NCBI RefSeq assembly: GCF_021532625.1
Contig: NZ_JAKGAR010000004.1
Span: forward strand, 62,001-126,000
DNA from: Octadecabacter algicola
Lineage (GTDB): Bacteria > Pseudomonadota > Alphaproteobacteria > Rhodobacterales > Rhodobacteraceae
Length of the DNA: 64,000 nt
Direction: 5' to 3'
Part shown: positions 43,044 through 47,432 of the stretch, one piece after another
Numbering within the stretch: the first letter of the stretch is position 1
How the letters are laid out: the number at the start of each line of letters is the position of its first letter
Notes under the pieces: generated by a model
What the model was told of the DNA's origin: nothing
Database searches by the model: none
What the model saw: only the letters and a program-made list of their open reading frames with translations
Program-made: the position numbers and the translations under genes

Positions 43044-43985
43044 ATGGCCGACACCCGCAAAACCAAAGTTCTTATCATCGGCTCCGGCCCGACAGGCTAC
43101 ACCGCTGGTGTCTACGCCAGCCGCGCCATGCTGGAACCGATCCTTGTGCAGGGCATCGAACCAGGTGGCCAGCTGACCACCACAACCGAAGTTGAAAACT
43201 GGCCCGGCGACATTGAAGTCCAAGGCCCGGACCTAATGGTCCGCATGGAAGCTCACGCCAAGGCAATGGGCACTGAAATCATCGGCGATATCATTACCTC
43301 CATCGATTTTTCTAAGCGGCCGTTTGTCTGCCAATCAGACAGCGGCACCGAATATGTCGCCGACGCGATCATCCTTGCCACTGGCGCGCGCGCCAAATGG
43401 CTGGGTCTTGAGACGGAAGAGAAATTCAAAGGCTTCGGCGTATCTGCCTGTGCCACCTGCGACGGTTTCTTCTATCGCAACCAAGAAATCGTTGTTGTCG
43501 GCGGTGGTAATACAGCTGTTGAAGAGGCGCTTTTCCTCACCAACTTCGCATCCAAGGTTACATTGGTTCACCGCCGCGATGAGCTCCGCGCAGAAGCGAT
43601 CCTTATCGACCGCTTGATGAAAAACCCGAAGATCGAACCGCTCTGGGACAACCAGCTCGAAGAAGTCTATGGCACTGACAACCCATTGGGTGTTGAAGGC
43701 ATCAAGACAAAGAACGTCAAGACTGGCGAGATCACCGATATCGCCTGTAAGGGCGTGTTCATCGCCATCGGCCACGCCCCCGCAAACGAACTGGTCAAAG
43801 ACCACCTCGAAACCCACATGGGCGGCTATGTTGTTACAAAACCAGACAGCACCGAAACATCCATCCCCGGTATCTATGCCGCAGGCGATCTGACCGACCA
43901 CAAATACCGCCAAGCGGTTACATCTGCAGGCATGGGCTGCATGGCCGCGCTTGAGGTTGAGCGCTGGCTGGCCGAACAAGACTAG
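43044..43985 (+). CDS. trxB: Thioredoxin-disulfide reductase
   Basis: A 313-residue flavoprotein that reduces thioredoxin with NADPH. The FAD-binding motif is LIIGSGPTGYTAGVYASRA. The redox-active disulfide is C136-A-T-C139 in GVSACATCDGFF. The NADPH-binding motif is VVGGGNTAVEEALFL, and the C-terminal FAD motif is GIYAAGDLTDHKYRQAVTSAG (shown in part as YAAGDLTDHKYRQAV). GAGG lies nine bases before the ATG. It is transcribed away from lrp. Confidence 0.98.
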   Translation: MADTRKTKVLIIGSGPTGYTAGVYASRAMLEPILVQGIEPGGQLTTTTEVENWPGDIEVQGPDLMVRMEAHAKAMGTEIIGDIITSIDFSKRPFVCQSDSGTEYVADAIILATGARAKWLGLETEEKFKGFGVSACATCDGFFYRNQEIVVVGGGNTAVEEALFLTNFASKVTLVHRRDELRAEAILIDRLMKNPKIEPLWDNQLEEVYGTDNPLGVEGIKTKNVKTGEITDIACKGVFIAIGHAPANELVKDHLETHMGGYVVTKPDSTETSIPGIYAAGDLTDHKYRQAVTSAGMGCMAALEVERWLAEQD

Positions 43986-44183: not shown

Positions 44184-44831
44184 TTAGCTTTTCTTGCGGC
44201 GACCCGCGGCAGCCATTCCACCAAGTCCAGCCAAAAGCATCCAACCAGCGGCAGGCAATGGTACCGGAGATGGATTGACGACTGCCGTTGCAGCTGAACT
44301 ATAAGCTATGTCCGAAATACCGACATTCCAAGAATCTGGGCCGAAAAAGATCTCAAAGCCAGCGCTTGACTGTGCGTTGAGAACGTAATCAAGACTGCCG
44401 TCAAACGTTGTTTCAAAATCACCAGTATCCAGAAGTACGGAGCTGTCTGCCAAGTCGACTACAGTAATACTCGTTGTCACCACTCGGTTAGCATATCGAG
44501 CAATGCTGAACCCATCGAGTAAGGCATCGAAACCAGCCGCCGCAGCGAAAGTAATCGACATGCCCGTCCCCGAACTGAGCGAGTAAGCAACCGATCCTAG
44601 GTCCTCATAGTTGCCATTCCAAAACAATACGTTCTCATTGGCAGCGGTCGCTGTGTCAGCATCCCAAACGACATCTAGTTCACCAGCAATGTCACCATAA
44701 GCTTGGTCAATCTGAAGGCCGTTAGAACAGGCACCGCCACCTGTGCAAATGTCGCCGCTAAAATCGAGGGTTGCAGCAAACGCTGGTGACGAAAAAGCCA
44801 CCAATGCTGCGGCTGTAGAAATCAGTCTCAT
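44184..44831 (-). CDS. VPLPA-CTERM sorting domain protein
   Basis: A 215-residue exported protein. An N-terminal signal peptide (about 19 residues, ending SSPAFA) precedes a beta-rich region with paired cysteines (DICTGGGACSNG). The C-terminus has the motif VPLPA at about residue 190, then a hydrophobic segment GWMLLAGLGGMAA and the basic tail GRRKKS. That is the PEP-CTERM-like tripartite signal cleaved by an exosortase, typically linked to extracellular polysaccharide. A GGAGA lies upstream of the ATG. The exosortase itself is not in the window. The next gene, divergent, encodes an EPS-associated type regulator domain, which suits this theme. Confidence 0.88.
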   Translation of the reverse strand: MRLISTAAALVAFSSPAFAATLDFSGDICTGGGACSNGLQIDQAYGDIAGELDVVWDADTATAANENVLFWNGNYEDLGSVAYSLSSGTGMSITFAAAAGFDALLDGFSIARYANRVVTTSITVVDLADSSVLLDTGDFETTFDGSLDYVLNAQSSAGFEIFFGPDSWNVGISDIAYSSAATAVVNPSPVPLPAAGWMLLAGLGGMAAAGRRKKS

Positions 44832-45037
44832 AGTAATTCTCCGTAACTCTAAAAATTTGTCCGATTAATTAGAAAAACTTACTATTATTTTTTGTTGTTG
44901 TAAATTCGTACGGACCCAGCCCGCTCTCCCCCCCTCAACACGGAAACAGTAACGAAAGTGATCGCCAAATAAGGTGAGATTTCGAAACAATAACCTCCAA
45001 CTCCCGACCACAATCAGGAAAAACGATCAGCACGTAA

Positions 45038-45089
45038 GTTTGTTCTTGCGTGAACAAACTCTGACACTATGTTCACGCTTGAACAAACA
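45038..45089. promoter_or_regulatory. Tandem palindromic operator sites upstream of the HTH-sat-cysC gene
   Basis: Two copies of TGTTC-N6-GAACA occur at 45041-45056 and 45070-45085, starting 29 bp apart. The first extends to AGTTTGTTC / GAACAAACT (45038-45060). Both right half-sites share GAACAAAC. The pair ends 15 bp before the ATG at 45104, where a repressor would block transcription. The gene's own N-terminal winged-helix domain is the obvious candidate ligand, which is inference. Confidence 0.7.
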
Positions 45090-45103
45090 GTGAGTCGCGC
45101 CTG

Positions 45104-47182
45104 ATGGCCATGTCGCCCGCAAAAATCACAACCGAACAAGAGGACCAAATGTTCCGATTGTTACGGCAGTTGGATCTCGCACCTGATGCGTCCCAACGGG
45201 TGACGGCAGAGGCGATCGGCGTATCTTTAGGTCGACTTAACGCACTCCTAAAACAAGCTACCGAAGCCGGCCTTGTAAACATCGAAGACCGCAACGGCCC
45301 CGACAAACGTGCGCGCCATACCTATGCCATCACGGCACGTGGCGCGGGCGAAAAGAACCGCCTTACAACTCAATTTCTAGCTCGAAAACTTGCCGAATAT
45401 GACGCGCTACATGCCGAACTTACGGGCAGTGCATCCGGCCTCACATCTCTTAGTAACAGGACCAAACTTATGGAACACAACCTTTCCCCGATCCCAGAGC
45501 TGTATGTCTCTTACGACTCGGCACAGAAGCTTAAAGTTGAAGCTGGCGAACTCGTCAGCCACGATCTGACACCGCGTCAGATCTGCGATCTTGAATTGCT
45601 GATGAACGGCGGCTTCAACCCACTTAAGGGATTCCTGACCGAAGCCGACTACGACAGCGTTGTGGACGACATGCGCCTGACAACAGGTGAACTTTGGCCA
45701 ATGCCGATCACTTTGGATGTGTCCGAAGAATTCGCAGCATCCCTTGAAGCTGGTCAAGACATCGCCTTGCGCGACCAAGAAGGCGTCATTTTGGCGACCA
45801 TGACTGTCACCGACAATTGGGTACCAAACAAAGCCAAGGAAGCTGAAAAGGTCTTCGGCGCCGATGATGACGCGCACCCTGCGGTCAACTACCTGCATAA
45901 CCAAGCTGGCAAAGTTTACCTTGGCGGTCCGGTCACAGGCATCCAACAGCCGGTTCACTACGATTTCCGCGCCCGTCGCGACACGCCAAACGAAATGCGC
46001 GCTTACTTCCGCAAAATGGGCTGGCGCAAAGTAGTTGCGTTCCAAACACGTAACCCGCTGCACCGCGCGCACCAAGAACTGACATTCCGCGCAGCACGCG
46101 AAGCACAGGCCAACCTGTTGATCCACCCTGTTGTGGGCCTTACCAAGCCGGGCGATGTTGACCACTTTACACGCGTTCGTTGCTACGAAGCAGTTCTGGA
46201 CAAGTACCCAGCATCCACAACAGCGATGTCCCTGCTTAACCTTGCCATGCGTATGGCAGGCCCACGCGAAGCAGTTTGGCACGGCCTGATCCGTAAGAAC
46301 CACGGCTGTACACACTTCATCGTTGGCCGTGACCACGCGGGTCCAGGGTCCAATTCCGCTGGTGAAGATTTCTACGGTGCCTACGACGCACAGGACCTGT
46401 TCCGTGCCCACCAAGAAGAAATGGGCATCGAAATGGTCGACTTCAAACACATGGTTTGGGTAGACGAACGCGCACAGTACGAAGCGATTGACGAGATTGA
46501 AGACAAAGACAAGGTCACGATCCTCAACATCTCTGGAACAGAACTGCGCCGCCGTTTGGCCGAAGGTCTGGAAATCCCTGAATGGTTCTCCTTCCCAGAA
46601 GTCGTCAAGGAATTGCGCCGCACAAAGCCGCCACGCTCCAAGCAGGGTTTCACAGTGTTCTTCACTGGCTTCTCCGGCTCAGGCAAATCCACAATCGCCA
46701 ACGCTTTGATGGTGAAGCTGATGGAAATGGGCGGTCGCCCGGTAACGCTTTTGGATGGCGACATTGTTCGTAAGAACCTGTCTTCCGAACTCGGTTTCTC
46801 TAAAGAGCACCGCGATCTGAACATCCGTCGCATCGGTTATGTTGCATCCGAGATCACTAAGAACGGTGGTATCGCGATCTGTGCGCCAATCGCGCCATAC
46901 GCAACGACACGCCGCGCCGTTCGTGAAGACATCGAAGCTTTCGGTGCATTCATCGAAGTGCACGTCGCAACGTCCATTGAAGAGTGCGAAAAGCGCGACC
47001 GCAAAGGCCTCTACAAGCTGGCCCGCGAAGGCAAGATCAAGGAATTCACAGGGATCTCTGATCCTTATGACGTTCCGGTCAACCCAGAACTGTCAGTTGA
47101 GACCGAGAACGTCGACGTCGACAACTGCGCACATCAGGTCATCCTGAAGCTCGAATCCATGGGCCTGATTGCCGCTGAATAA
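45104..47182 (+). CDS. MarR/EPS-type winged-helix domain fused to ATP sulfurylase / APS kinase
   Basis: One uninterrupted 692-codon frame with three parts. Residues about 8-113 match MarR-family EPS-associated regulators (DQMFRLLRQLDL, SQRVTAEAIGVSLGRLNALLKQATEAGLV, GAGEKNRLTTQFLARKLAEYDALHAEL, each given in part). From residue 123 (MEHNLSPIPELYVSYDSAQK) there is a complete sulfate adenylyltransferase with RNPLHRAHQEL near 317. From about 510 there is adenylylsulfate kinase with Walker A FTGFSGSGKST and DGDIVRKNLS. The enzyme makes APS then PAPS for sulfate assimilation or sulfation. No stop separates regulator and enzyme; the ATG at 45470 with AGGA eight bases upstream could start a free 570-residue enzyme. 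The codon join reads TCT CTT AGT AAC AGG. Confidence 0.9.
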   Translation: MAMSPAKITTEQEDQMFRLLRQLDLAPDASQRVTAEAIGVSLGRLNALLKQATEAGLVNIEDRNGPDKRARHTYAITARGAGEKNRLTTQFLARKLAEYDALHAELTGSASGLTSLSNRTKLMEHNLSPIPELYVSYDSAQKLKVEAGELVSHDLTPRQICDLELLMNGGFNPLKGFLTEADYDSVVDDMRLTTGELWPMPITLDVSEEFAASLEAGQDIALRDQEGVILATMTVTDNWVPNKAKEAEKVFGADDDAHPAVNYLHNQAGKVYLGGPVTGIQQPVHYDFRARRDTPNEMRAYFRKMGWRKVVAFQTRNPLHRAHQELTFRAAREAQANLLIHPVVGLTKPGDVDHFTRVRCYEAVLDKYPASTTAMSLLNLAMRMAGPREAVWHGLIRKNHGCTHFIVGRDHAGPGSNSAGEDFYGAYDAQDLFRAHQEEMGIEMVDFKHMVWVDERAQYEAIDEIEDKDKVTILNISGTELRRRLAEGLEIPEWFSFPEVVKELRRTKPPRSKQGFTVFFTGFSGSGKSTIANALMVKLMEMGGRPVTLLDGDIVRKNLSSELGFSKEHRDLNIRRIGYVASEITKNGGIAICAPIAPYATTRRAVREDIEAFGAFIEVHVATSIEECEKRDRKGLYKLAREGKIKEFTGISDPYDVPVNPELSVETENVDVDNCAHQVILKLESMGLIAAE
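45456..45472 (+). promoter_or_regulatory. Internal ribosome-binding site and ATG for a free Sat-CysC enzyme
   Basis: AGGA followed by eight bases and ATG (45470-45472) lies inside the long frame, exactly at the residue where stand-alone Sat-CysC proteins of this group would begin. This suggests the enzyme was, and may still be, translated separately. Confidence 0.6.
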
Positions 47183-47227: not shown

Positions 47228-47255
47228 GGCGCGGGCATCTAGCTCGCGCCTTTTT
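47228..47255 (+). terminator. Rho-independent terminator after the Sat-CysC gene
   Basis: A 9-bp stem (GGCGCGGGC pairing with GCTCGCGCC through one G-T pair) with a 5-nt loop is followed by TTTTT. Confidence 0.9.
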
Positions 47256-47432
47256 CGCATTTCCTAAACGCAGAAGACACATATCTACCGCAAGCGGATC
47301 ATATCAATGACTTTTCTATTGCGACCAATTGTTAAAATCGCGACTACTGCGCAAGGTCCTGCTTTAATTCATCGCAGTCGGCCCCGCTCTTTCTAGGGCG
47401 TGTTATGAGTACGAATAATTTGGCCGCACTTT

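Follow-up and report, generated by a model that had tools for sequence, protein, structure and literature searches.

An in-frame fusion in Octadecabacter joins a winged-helix DNA-binding part of helix-turn-helix (HTH) type to ATP sulfurylase (Sat) and APS kinase (CysC), and the reading that we favor, at a probability of roughly 0.7, is that the gene would be autoregulated through dyad elements upstream of it and would give rise to two products. Translation revealed an open frame of 692 codons without a stop at 45104–47182 on the forward strand of the window (the whole 64,000-nucleotide stretch of DNA analyzed), corresponding to an HTH-Sat-CysC protein of 692 aa and 77.1 kDa. The suggestion in a preliminary description that this is a sulfate-activating enzyme that binds DNA and regulates its own gene became probable by sequence, because the dyads sit where the gene's own promoter is presumed to be, accompany the fusion, and are also seen at unfused genes of the MarR_EPS regulator family.

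Domains, distribution and history of the fusion

The preliminary description had claimed that one 692-codon frame joins an HTH domain to a complete Sat-CysC enzyme through junction codons lacking a stop (TCT CTT AGT AAC AGG ACC AAA CTT ATG); translation and profile matches bore out the frame, and the codons were found exactly as first quoted. The MarR_EPS profile TIGR04176 matched residues ~12–107 with 81.7 bits (E 3.5e-23) when the HTH part was searched alone and with 77.1 bits when the whole protein was used, below the curated cut-off of 88, so that the HTH part is best described as a near relative and not a filed member of MarR_EPS. Its match to HTH_24 exceeded the cut-off of that profile, and the two matches, together with the structure model and a pN/pS of 0.29, placed the winged-helix DNA-binding part at residues 12–83 (45137–45352, forward strand). 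The bifunctional Sat/CysC profile NF004040 covered residues 121–690 with 1037 bits against a cut-off of 669, and the protein contained the sequences QTRNPLHRAH, GRDHAGPG and the P-loop GFSGSGKST, which we take to be the putative catalytic motifs of Sat-CysC. By its sequence, the enzyme part is a complete bifunctional ATP sulfurylase/APS kinase.

An AlphaFold2 model of the HTH part (mean pLDDT 84.5 over 128 residues) predicted a winged helix followed by a 30-residue C-terminal helix, with helices at residues 5–25, 31–38, 42–54 and 78–107 and strands at 58–62 and 72–76, which is the helix-helix-helix plus two-stranded wing arrangement of the MarR/winged-helix fold. The model of the full-length protein, with a mean pLDDT of only 68.0, was too poor for use. 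Foldseek searches with the HTH model returned MarR proteins with the best E-values (1.2e-5 and higher), and the top TM among the targets listed, 0.74–0.76, belonged to Sso10a-2, a protein that dimerizes via a long helix. The long helix predicted in the fusion (residues 78–107; 45335–45424, forward strand) is a probable dimerization helix. Comparison of 14 Octadecabacter sequences (91 pairs) gave pN/pS values of 0.29 for the HTH, 0.16 for the long helix (residues 84–108), 0.44 for the linker, 0.09 for Sat and 0.06 for CysC, and by this measure the HTH is under purifying selection. The linker itself (45425–45469, forward strand) was of constant length, with 12 residues from G108 to R119 and no stop in 106 of 106 aligned fused genes.

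A protein search of 61 genomes recovered the full-length fusion in 14 of the 19 genomes of the genus, the present one included, and in three other genera (G020, G028 and G029). The other members of the genus ranged from a copy 99% identical to the present fusion (G005) through a fused fragment cut by a contig end (G002), interrupted fusions (G007 and G010) and a remnant of residues 408–692 only (G018) to an unfused enzyme with both the HTH and the dyad absent (G016). When the HTH profile was run against 394 genomes of the family, a sample of about one genome per genus, 90 genomes scored at least 155 bits, and in 88 of these the match lay in a frame of at least 690 aa, the exceptions being G422 (601 aa) and G074 (267 aa); proteins combining an HTH of this type with Sat-CysC are thus found well beyond the present genome. 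Below this group, scores among the matches listed reached at most 111 bits and nearly all came from short frames; a 75-bit match in G337 lay in a 713-aa frame that also held Sat-CysC. HTH and Sat-CysC shared one frame in all 30 loci taken from the family profile search and in all 80 further loci fetched. The full tally of 144 loci comprised 130 with HTH and Sat-CysC in one frame (a number that includes duplicates and L018 of genome G007, which retains only the HTH end in that frame), 12 with Sat-CysC only and 2 with neither. Sat-CysC was present in 326 of the 394 family genomes (E up to 1e-100), and the HTH appears dispensable because it is missing from most of these (~90/394 versus 326/394). 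Among 385 genomes of the class searched with the HTH at E up to 1e-8, only two matches lay in long frames, both in the same family, and the remaining matches lay in frames of 343 aa or less. The fusion is present in just under a quarter of the sampled genera of the family.

The same frame was kept across many genera, which ruled out a sequencing or assembly error as the cause of the fusion. It also ruled out the recent loss of a single stop codon, and the preliminary view that the simplest origin was a stop lost between two adjacent genes did not hold as a recent event in one genome. In a tree of the HTH parts (a quick tree of few columns, with the divergent locus L210 not counted), 74 thinned fused HTHs formed one clade against 20 unfused MarR_EPS proteins, with an SH-aLRT of 91. 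A FastTree phylogeny of the 112 enzymes whose matches were long (75 fused, 36 unfused and L210; L019 and L214 are the same gene, leaving 35 unfused genes, one of them the outgroup) interspersed fused and unfused enzymes with 13 changes, at least nine of them forced by starred branches, and did not show a single clean origin of the fusion. We favor one old fusion followed by repeated loss of the HTH together with its putative operator, of which G016 would be an example within Octadecabacter; enzyme transfer or re-fusion may account for the pattern instead. In G007 (L018/L215), the HTH frame was broken, the proximal dyad had decayed and the internal AGG described below was changed, with the enzyme frame still open, which by its sequence looks like a loss in progress. 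The HTH frame was also broken in L216 (G010), and these broken frames in G007 and G010 may be assembly errors instead of real losses. The G337 locus (L210) encoded a divergent HTH-Sat-CysC whose linker is longer; GTTCAN4TGAAC occurs there as two dyads at a spacing of 25 bp, and a separate internal GAGAGGA followed by ATG precedes the enzyme. Its position on the HTH tree was unsure, with an end branch of 1.88, and from these features it is perhaps a second, independent fusion.

The frames neighboring the present gene were read by eye as thioredoxin reductase (trxB; 43044–43985, upstream), a small CopD-like frame, Hsp20, purE and purK. Fused to Sat-CysC and placed among these neighbors, the HTH does not occur here as the free-standing regulator in an exopolysaccharide cluster that typifies MarR_EPS. 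Between trxB and the fusion, at 44184–44831 on the reverse strand, lay a frame whose small product looks secreted and terminates in VPLPAAGWMLLAGLGG...RRKKS, a tail that we take to be VPLPA/PEP-CTERM-like. This frame appears to be extra in the window, because the end of a trxB-like frame was seen by eye close to the dyads in relatives such as L006 and L008. Around the unfused MarR_EPS genes, a GCGGTAG/GCGGCAG element, presumably akin to the ops/JUMPstart element, occurred at most 200 nt upstream of 19 of 20 loci (L150–L169; L246 and L247 are also concerned), and GCGGTAG was seen in 1 of 107 fused loci. A gene for a NusG-family protein or RfaH adjoined the MarR_EPS regulator in two annotated plasmids.

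A conserved internal start

Eight nucleotides downstream of an AGGA Shine-Dalgarno sequence at 45458–45461 (forward strand), an internal ATG opened an enzyme-only Sat-CysC frame at 45470–47182 (forward strand), predicted to encode 570 aa and 63.8 kDa. In the 106 fused genes aligned by codon, a set that leaves out L018, the arginine at position 119 was encoded by AGG in 105 genes. AGG accounted for only 0.73% of the other Arg codons (38 of 5185), and when 40 Arg columns with almost no variation were compared, the column with the second most AGG codons had 9. The first base of codon 120 was A in 105 of 106 genes, with the residue itself varying between T, N, S, M and I, and codon 123 was a start codon in 105 of 106 (ATG 94, GTG 10, TTG 1 and ATA 1). 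The internal Shine-Dalgarno and start were therefore conserved beyond the need of the protein (n = 106). Exceptions were limited to L008 (ATA), L144 (CGG), L071 (AGGT) and the broken copy L018/L215 (AGA). The median pairing energy with the anti-Shine-Dalgarno sequence was −4.0 at the internal start, whereas the first start and random places both gave −2.2; the value for the first start was the best of several candidate starts, which favors it. The first start thus had no good Shine-Dalgarno, its pairing being no better than at random places.

The conserved internal Shine-Dalgarno and start, together with the stop-free linker of constant length, suggest that one gene probably yields a 77-kDa regulator-enzyme and a 64-kDa enzyme. 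Selection apparently maintains read-through as well as the internal start, given that the internal start is conserved and the 12-residue linker remains free of stops. The preliminary description had set the fusion against an enzyme made alone from 45470; the internal start proved to be real in its conservation, and the choice between the two gave way to the probable formation of both. A 64.39-kDa entry named 'subunit 1/adenylylsulfate kinase' appears in one report (PMC4103551), by its name another type of enzyme.

Operator-like dyads, proposed control and alternatives

Two TGTTC-N6-GAACA dyads spaced 29 bp apart preceded the present gene. The distal dyad, AGTTTGTTC-N6-GAACAAACT at 45037–45060, had perfect 9-bp arms separated by 6 nt, with the core TGTTCN6GAACA at 45041–45056. 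The proximal dyad, at 45068–45088 with its core TGTTCACGCTTGAACA at 45070–45085, overlapped a −10-like TATGTT at 45068–45073 identified by eye. A sigma-70 promoter scan upstream of the gene gave no consensus site, and the overlap of dyad and promoter therefore relies on reading by eye. Directly after the proximal dyad came a leader element around TGAGTCG (TTTGAGTCGC-like; 45091–45097, forward strand, position in the window by eye), and across the fused loci columns +19 to +26 from the dyad start were 66–84% one base. At the other end of the gene, a terminator scan found none; a hairpin with a T stretch was seen by eye near 47228–47256.

Each of the 107 distinct fused loci carried GTTCN6GAAC at −70 to −20 relative to the HTH model start (18 from L001–L018, 28 from L035–L064 and 61 from L065–L144, after collapsing identical HTH sequences; the set includes L018, in which the HTH frame breaks near residue 72). 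The match was the distal copy only in L008, L018 and L077, and 34 of the 107 loci carried a second upstream dyad, usually at a spacing of 29 or 32 bp to the proximal copy. The stricter TGTTCN6GAACA occurred in 69 of 107 fused loci versus 0.014% of single-base shuffles. Upstream of unfused sat-cysC genes (12 from L019–L030 and 40 hand-picked among the matches listed, in frames of at most 631 aa), GTTCN6GAAC was present within 300 nt in only 1 of 52, at −254, and within 200 nt in 0 of 52. The dyad therefore tracks the HTH and not the enzyme. Among 20 unfused MarR_EPS loci, hand-picked from mainly the higher-scoring profile matches, the same type of dyad preceded 16 in the relaxed form G[TC]TCN6GA[AG]C, a pattern chosen after inspecting these upstream regions, and 9 in the strict form. 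Random windows gave 193/5000 relaxed and 131/5000 strict matches, a background that is inflated because the windows were drawn from loci holding true operators. These patterns are most simply explained if GTTCA-N4-TGAAC is the site bound by this HTH family and the fused gene controls itself through it.

Autoregulation through the dyads could then proceed as follows. The long form would dimerize via its long helix, bind the dyads at the presumed promoter and repress its own transcription, and the short form, made from the stronger internal site, would supply most of the enzyme. The long and short forms would also co-assemble, and because of this DNA binding could depend on which ligands the enzyme carries (APS, PAPS, or ATP and sulfate), such that an excess of APS/PAPS would tighten repression and depletion would release it. 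Such gating by a metabolite, taken alone, is a tentative proposal with odds slightly short of even. It was raised because the solved structure best matching the present protein was Penicillium ATP sulfurylase, and the APS-kinase-like domain of this related enzyme is reported to bind PAPS and to control the ATP sulfurylase (PMC3734648). More tentative still is the complete single-gene feedback device, in which HTH-bearing and HTH-less subunits would form a mixed oligomer, the APS/PAPS state would set its grip on the operator, and the two ribosome-binding sites would fix the ratio of regulator to enzyme. The only gene of the PAPS/APS-reductase family found in the genome (L245; G000:C7:855010) encoded a CysH with CC and CxxC, presumably the pattern typical of APS reductases. 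If CysH is an APS reductase, cysteine synthesis would draw on APS, with PAPS on a side branch, which would place the regulator where the two routes part; PAPS may be dispensable for cysteine synthesis here.

It is possible, though rather unlikely, that the HTH is a plain autorepressor that keeps its own message level steady, with the enzyme part as a passenger and no metabolite sensed. The dyads, the fusion and the internal start would all be explained in this way without a ligand; yet a separate regulator gene would suffice for the task, and the linker is fixed and stop-free in 106 of 106 genes, which suggests that the physical linkage matters. Activation by the fused HTH of its own gene, for example under sulfur need, is clearly unlikely: the distal dyad, where present, lies upstream of the presumed −10 region and would also suit an activator, but the proximal dyad, retained in almost all loci, coincides by eye with the presumed −10 region, as would suit a repressor.

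The strict patterns were rare in the genome at large. TGTTCN6GAACA occurred five times in 3.45 Mb, two of them at the present gene, and GTTCAN4TGAAC seven times, one of them at the present gene. Of the nine strict sites elsewhere, seven fell within predicted frames, one in the gap between two convergent frames (L240) and one before a putative atpG, and none of them formed a close pair. The last of these is a single TGTTCN6GAACA 28 nt before a frame read as atpG (L148; G000:C10:134181). GTTCN6GAAC was absent from a 3516-base cysH stretch that stops short of the start of the frame before cysH and hence of the promoter of the cluster. A wider regulon was not found in the present genome with the strict patterns, and as far as one genome and these patterns tell, this suggests a local device. 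We accordingly consider it highly improbable that the protein mainly controls other genes, such as those of exopolysaccharide or sulfation, as is believed for the unfused relatives; in two plasmids those relatives do sit in polysaccharide clusters, one with a sulfotransferase, but the sites outside the present gene fall mostly inside frames (7/9) and are unpaired. The least probable reading, that the upstream part is a decaying passenger and only the enzyme from 45470 matters, would agree with the better Shine-Dalgarno of the internal start and with the broken HTH of G007 and G010 and the lack of one in G016, but is opposed by pN/pS values of 0.29 (HTH) and 0.16 (its helix), by a linker without a stop or length change in 106 of 106 genes, and by the retention of the dyads together with the HTH.

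Comparison with known systems

The proposed autoregulatory fusion has its closest relatives in the unfused MarR_EPS proteins (TIGR04176), which belong by sequence to the same HTH family and whose genes are preceded by the same type of dyad (16/20). They differ from it in being short and free-standing, in lying in exopolysaccharide clusters with no enzyme attached, and in the distance from the dyad to the HTH model start, which is ~70–145 nt in the unfused genes and mostly ~40 nt in the fused ones. Among the papers listed in a literature search by family name, none was evidently on a DNA site for MarR_EPS, and the dyad is a candidate for the sequence that MarR_EPS regulators recognize in exopolysaccharide clusters. 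The enzyme part is very similar to bifunctional Sat-CysC (NF004040) and to the solved structures 1i2d and 1m8p (Penicillium ATP sulfurylase) and 2gks (bifunctional SAT/APS kinase), whereas these structures contain no DNA-binding domain and their matches start after residue 141 of the present protein. Among the papers listed in a literature search largely without subscription journals, none was found on a DNA-binding domain attached to a sulfate-activating enzyme, and no account was found of the control of sulfate activation in roseobacters.

Two products from one gene have precedents. Two-polypeptide phage endolysins are reported to arise from in-frame internal starts with a shared stop and to form a mixed complex in one case (PMC9430671). 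Those are lysis enzymes whose products were shown experimentally, whereas here a regulator is concerned and the products are predicted. A sulfur-assimilation enzyme with a reported role in transcription is PAPS reductase A of Tuber melanosporum (PMC4848566), which differs in being another enzyme, in being fungal, and in activating through a C-terminal peptide. If our reading is true, control of the first step of sulfate assimilation would be built into the enzyme itself in just under a quarter of the sampled genera of the family, and the gene would offer a clean natural case in which a regulator and its target enzyme are split from one gene via two conserved starts, with the unfused relatives as natural controls.

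NadR, BirA and PutA are enzymes that regulate their own genes, each a single polypeptide in which a metabolic enzyme is combined with a DNA-binding domain, and the effector of BirA and NadR is a nucleotide linked to the reaction. The present fusion departs from these in its enzyme, in its HTH family, and in having a conserved second start from which the enzyme would be made without the HTH. Two-start genes and self-regulating enzymes are already known, and the fusion is therefore rated as a variant of them, in which the use of a sulfate-activating enzyme appears to be new.
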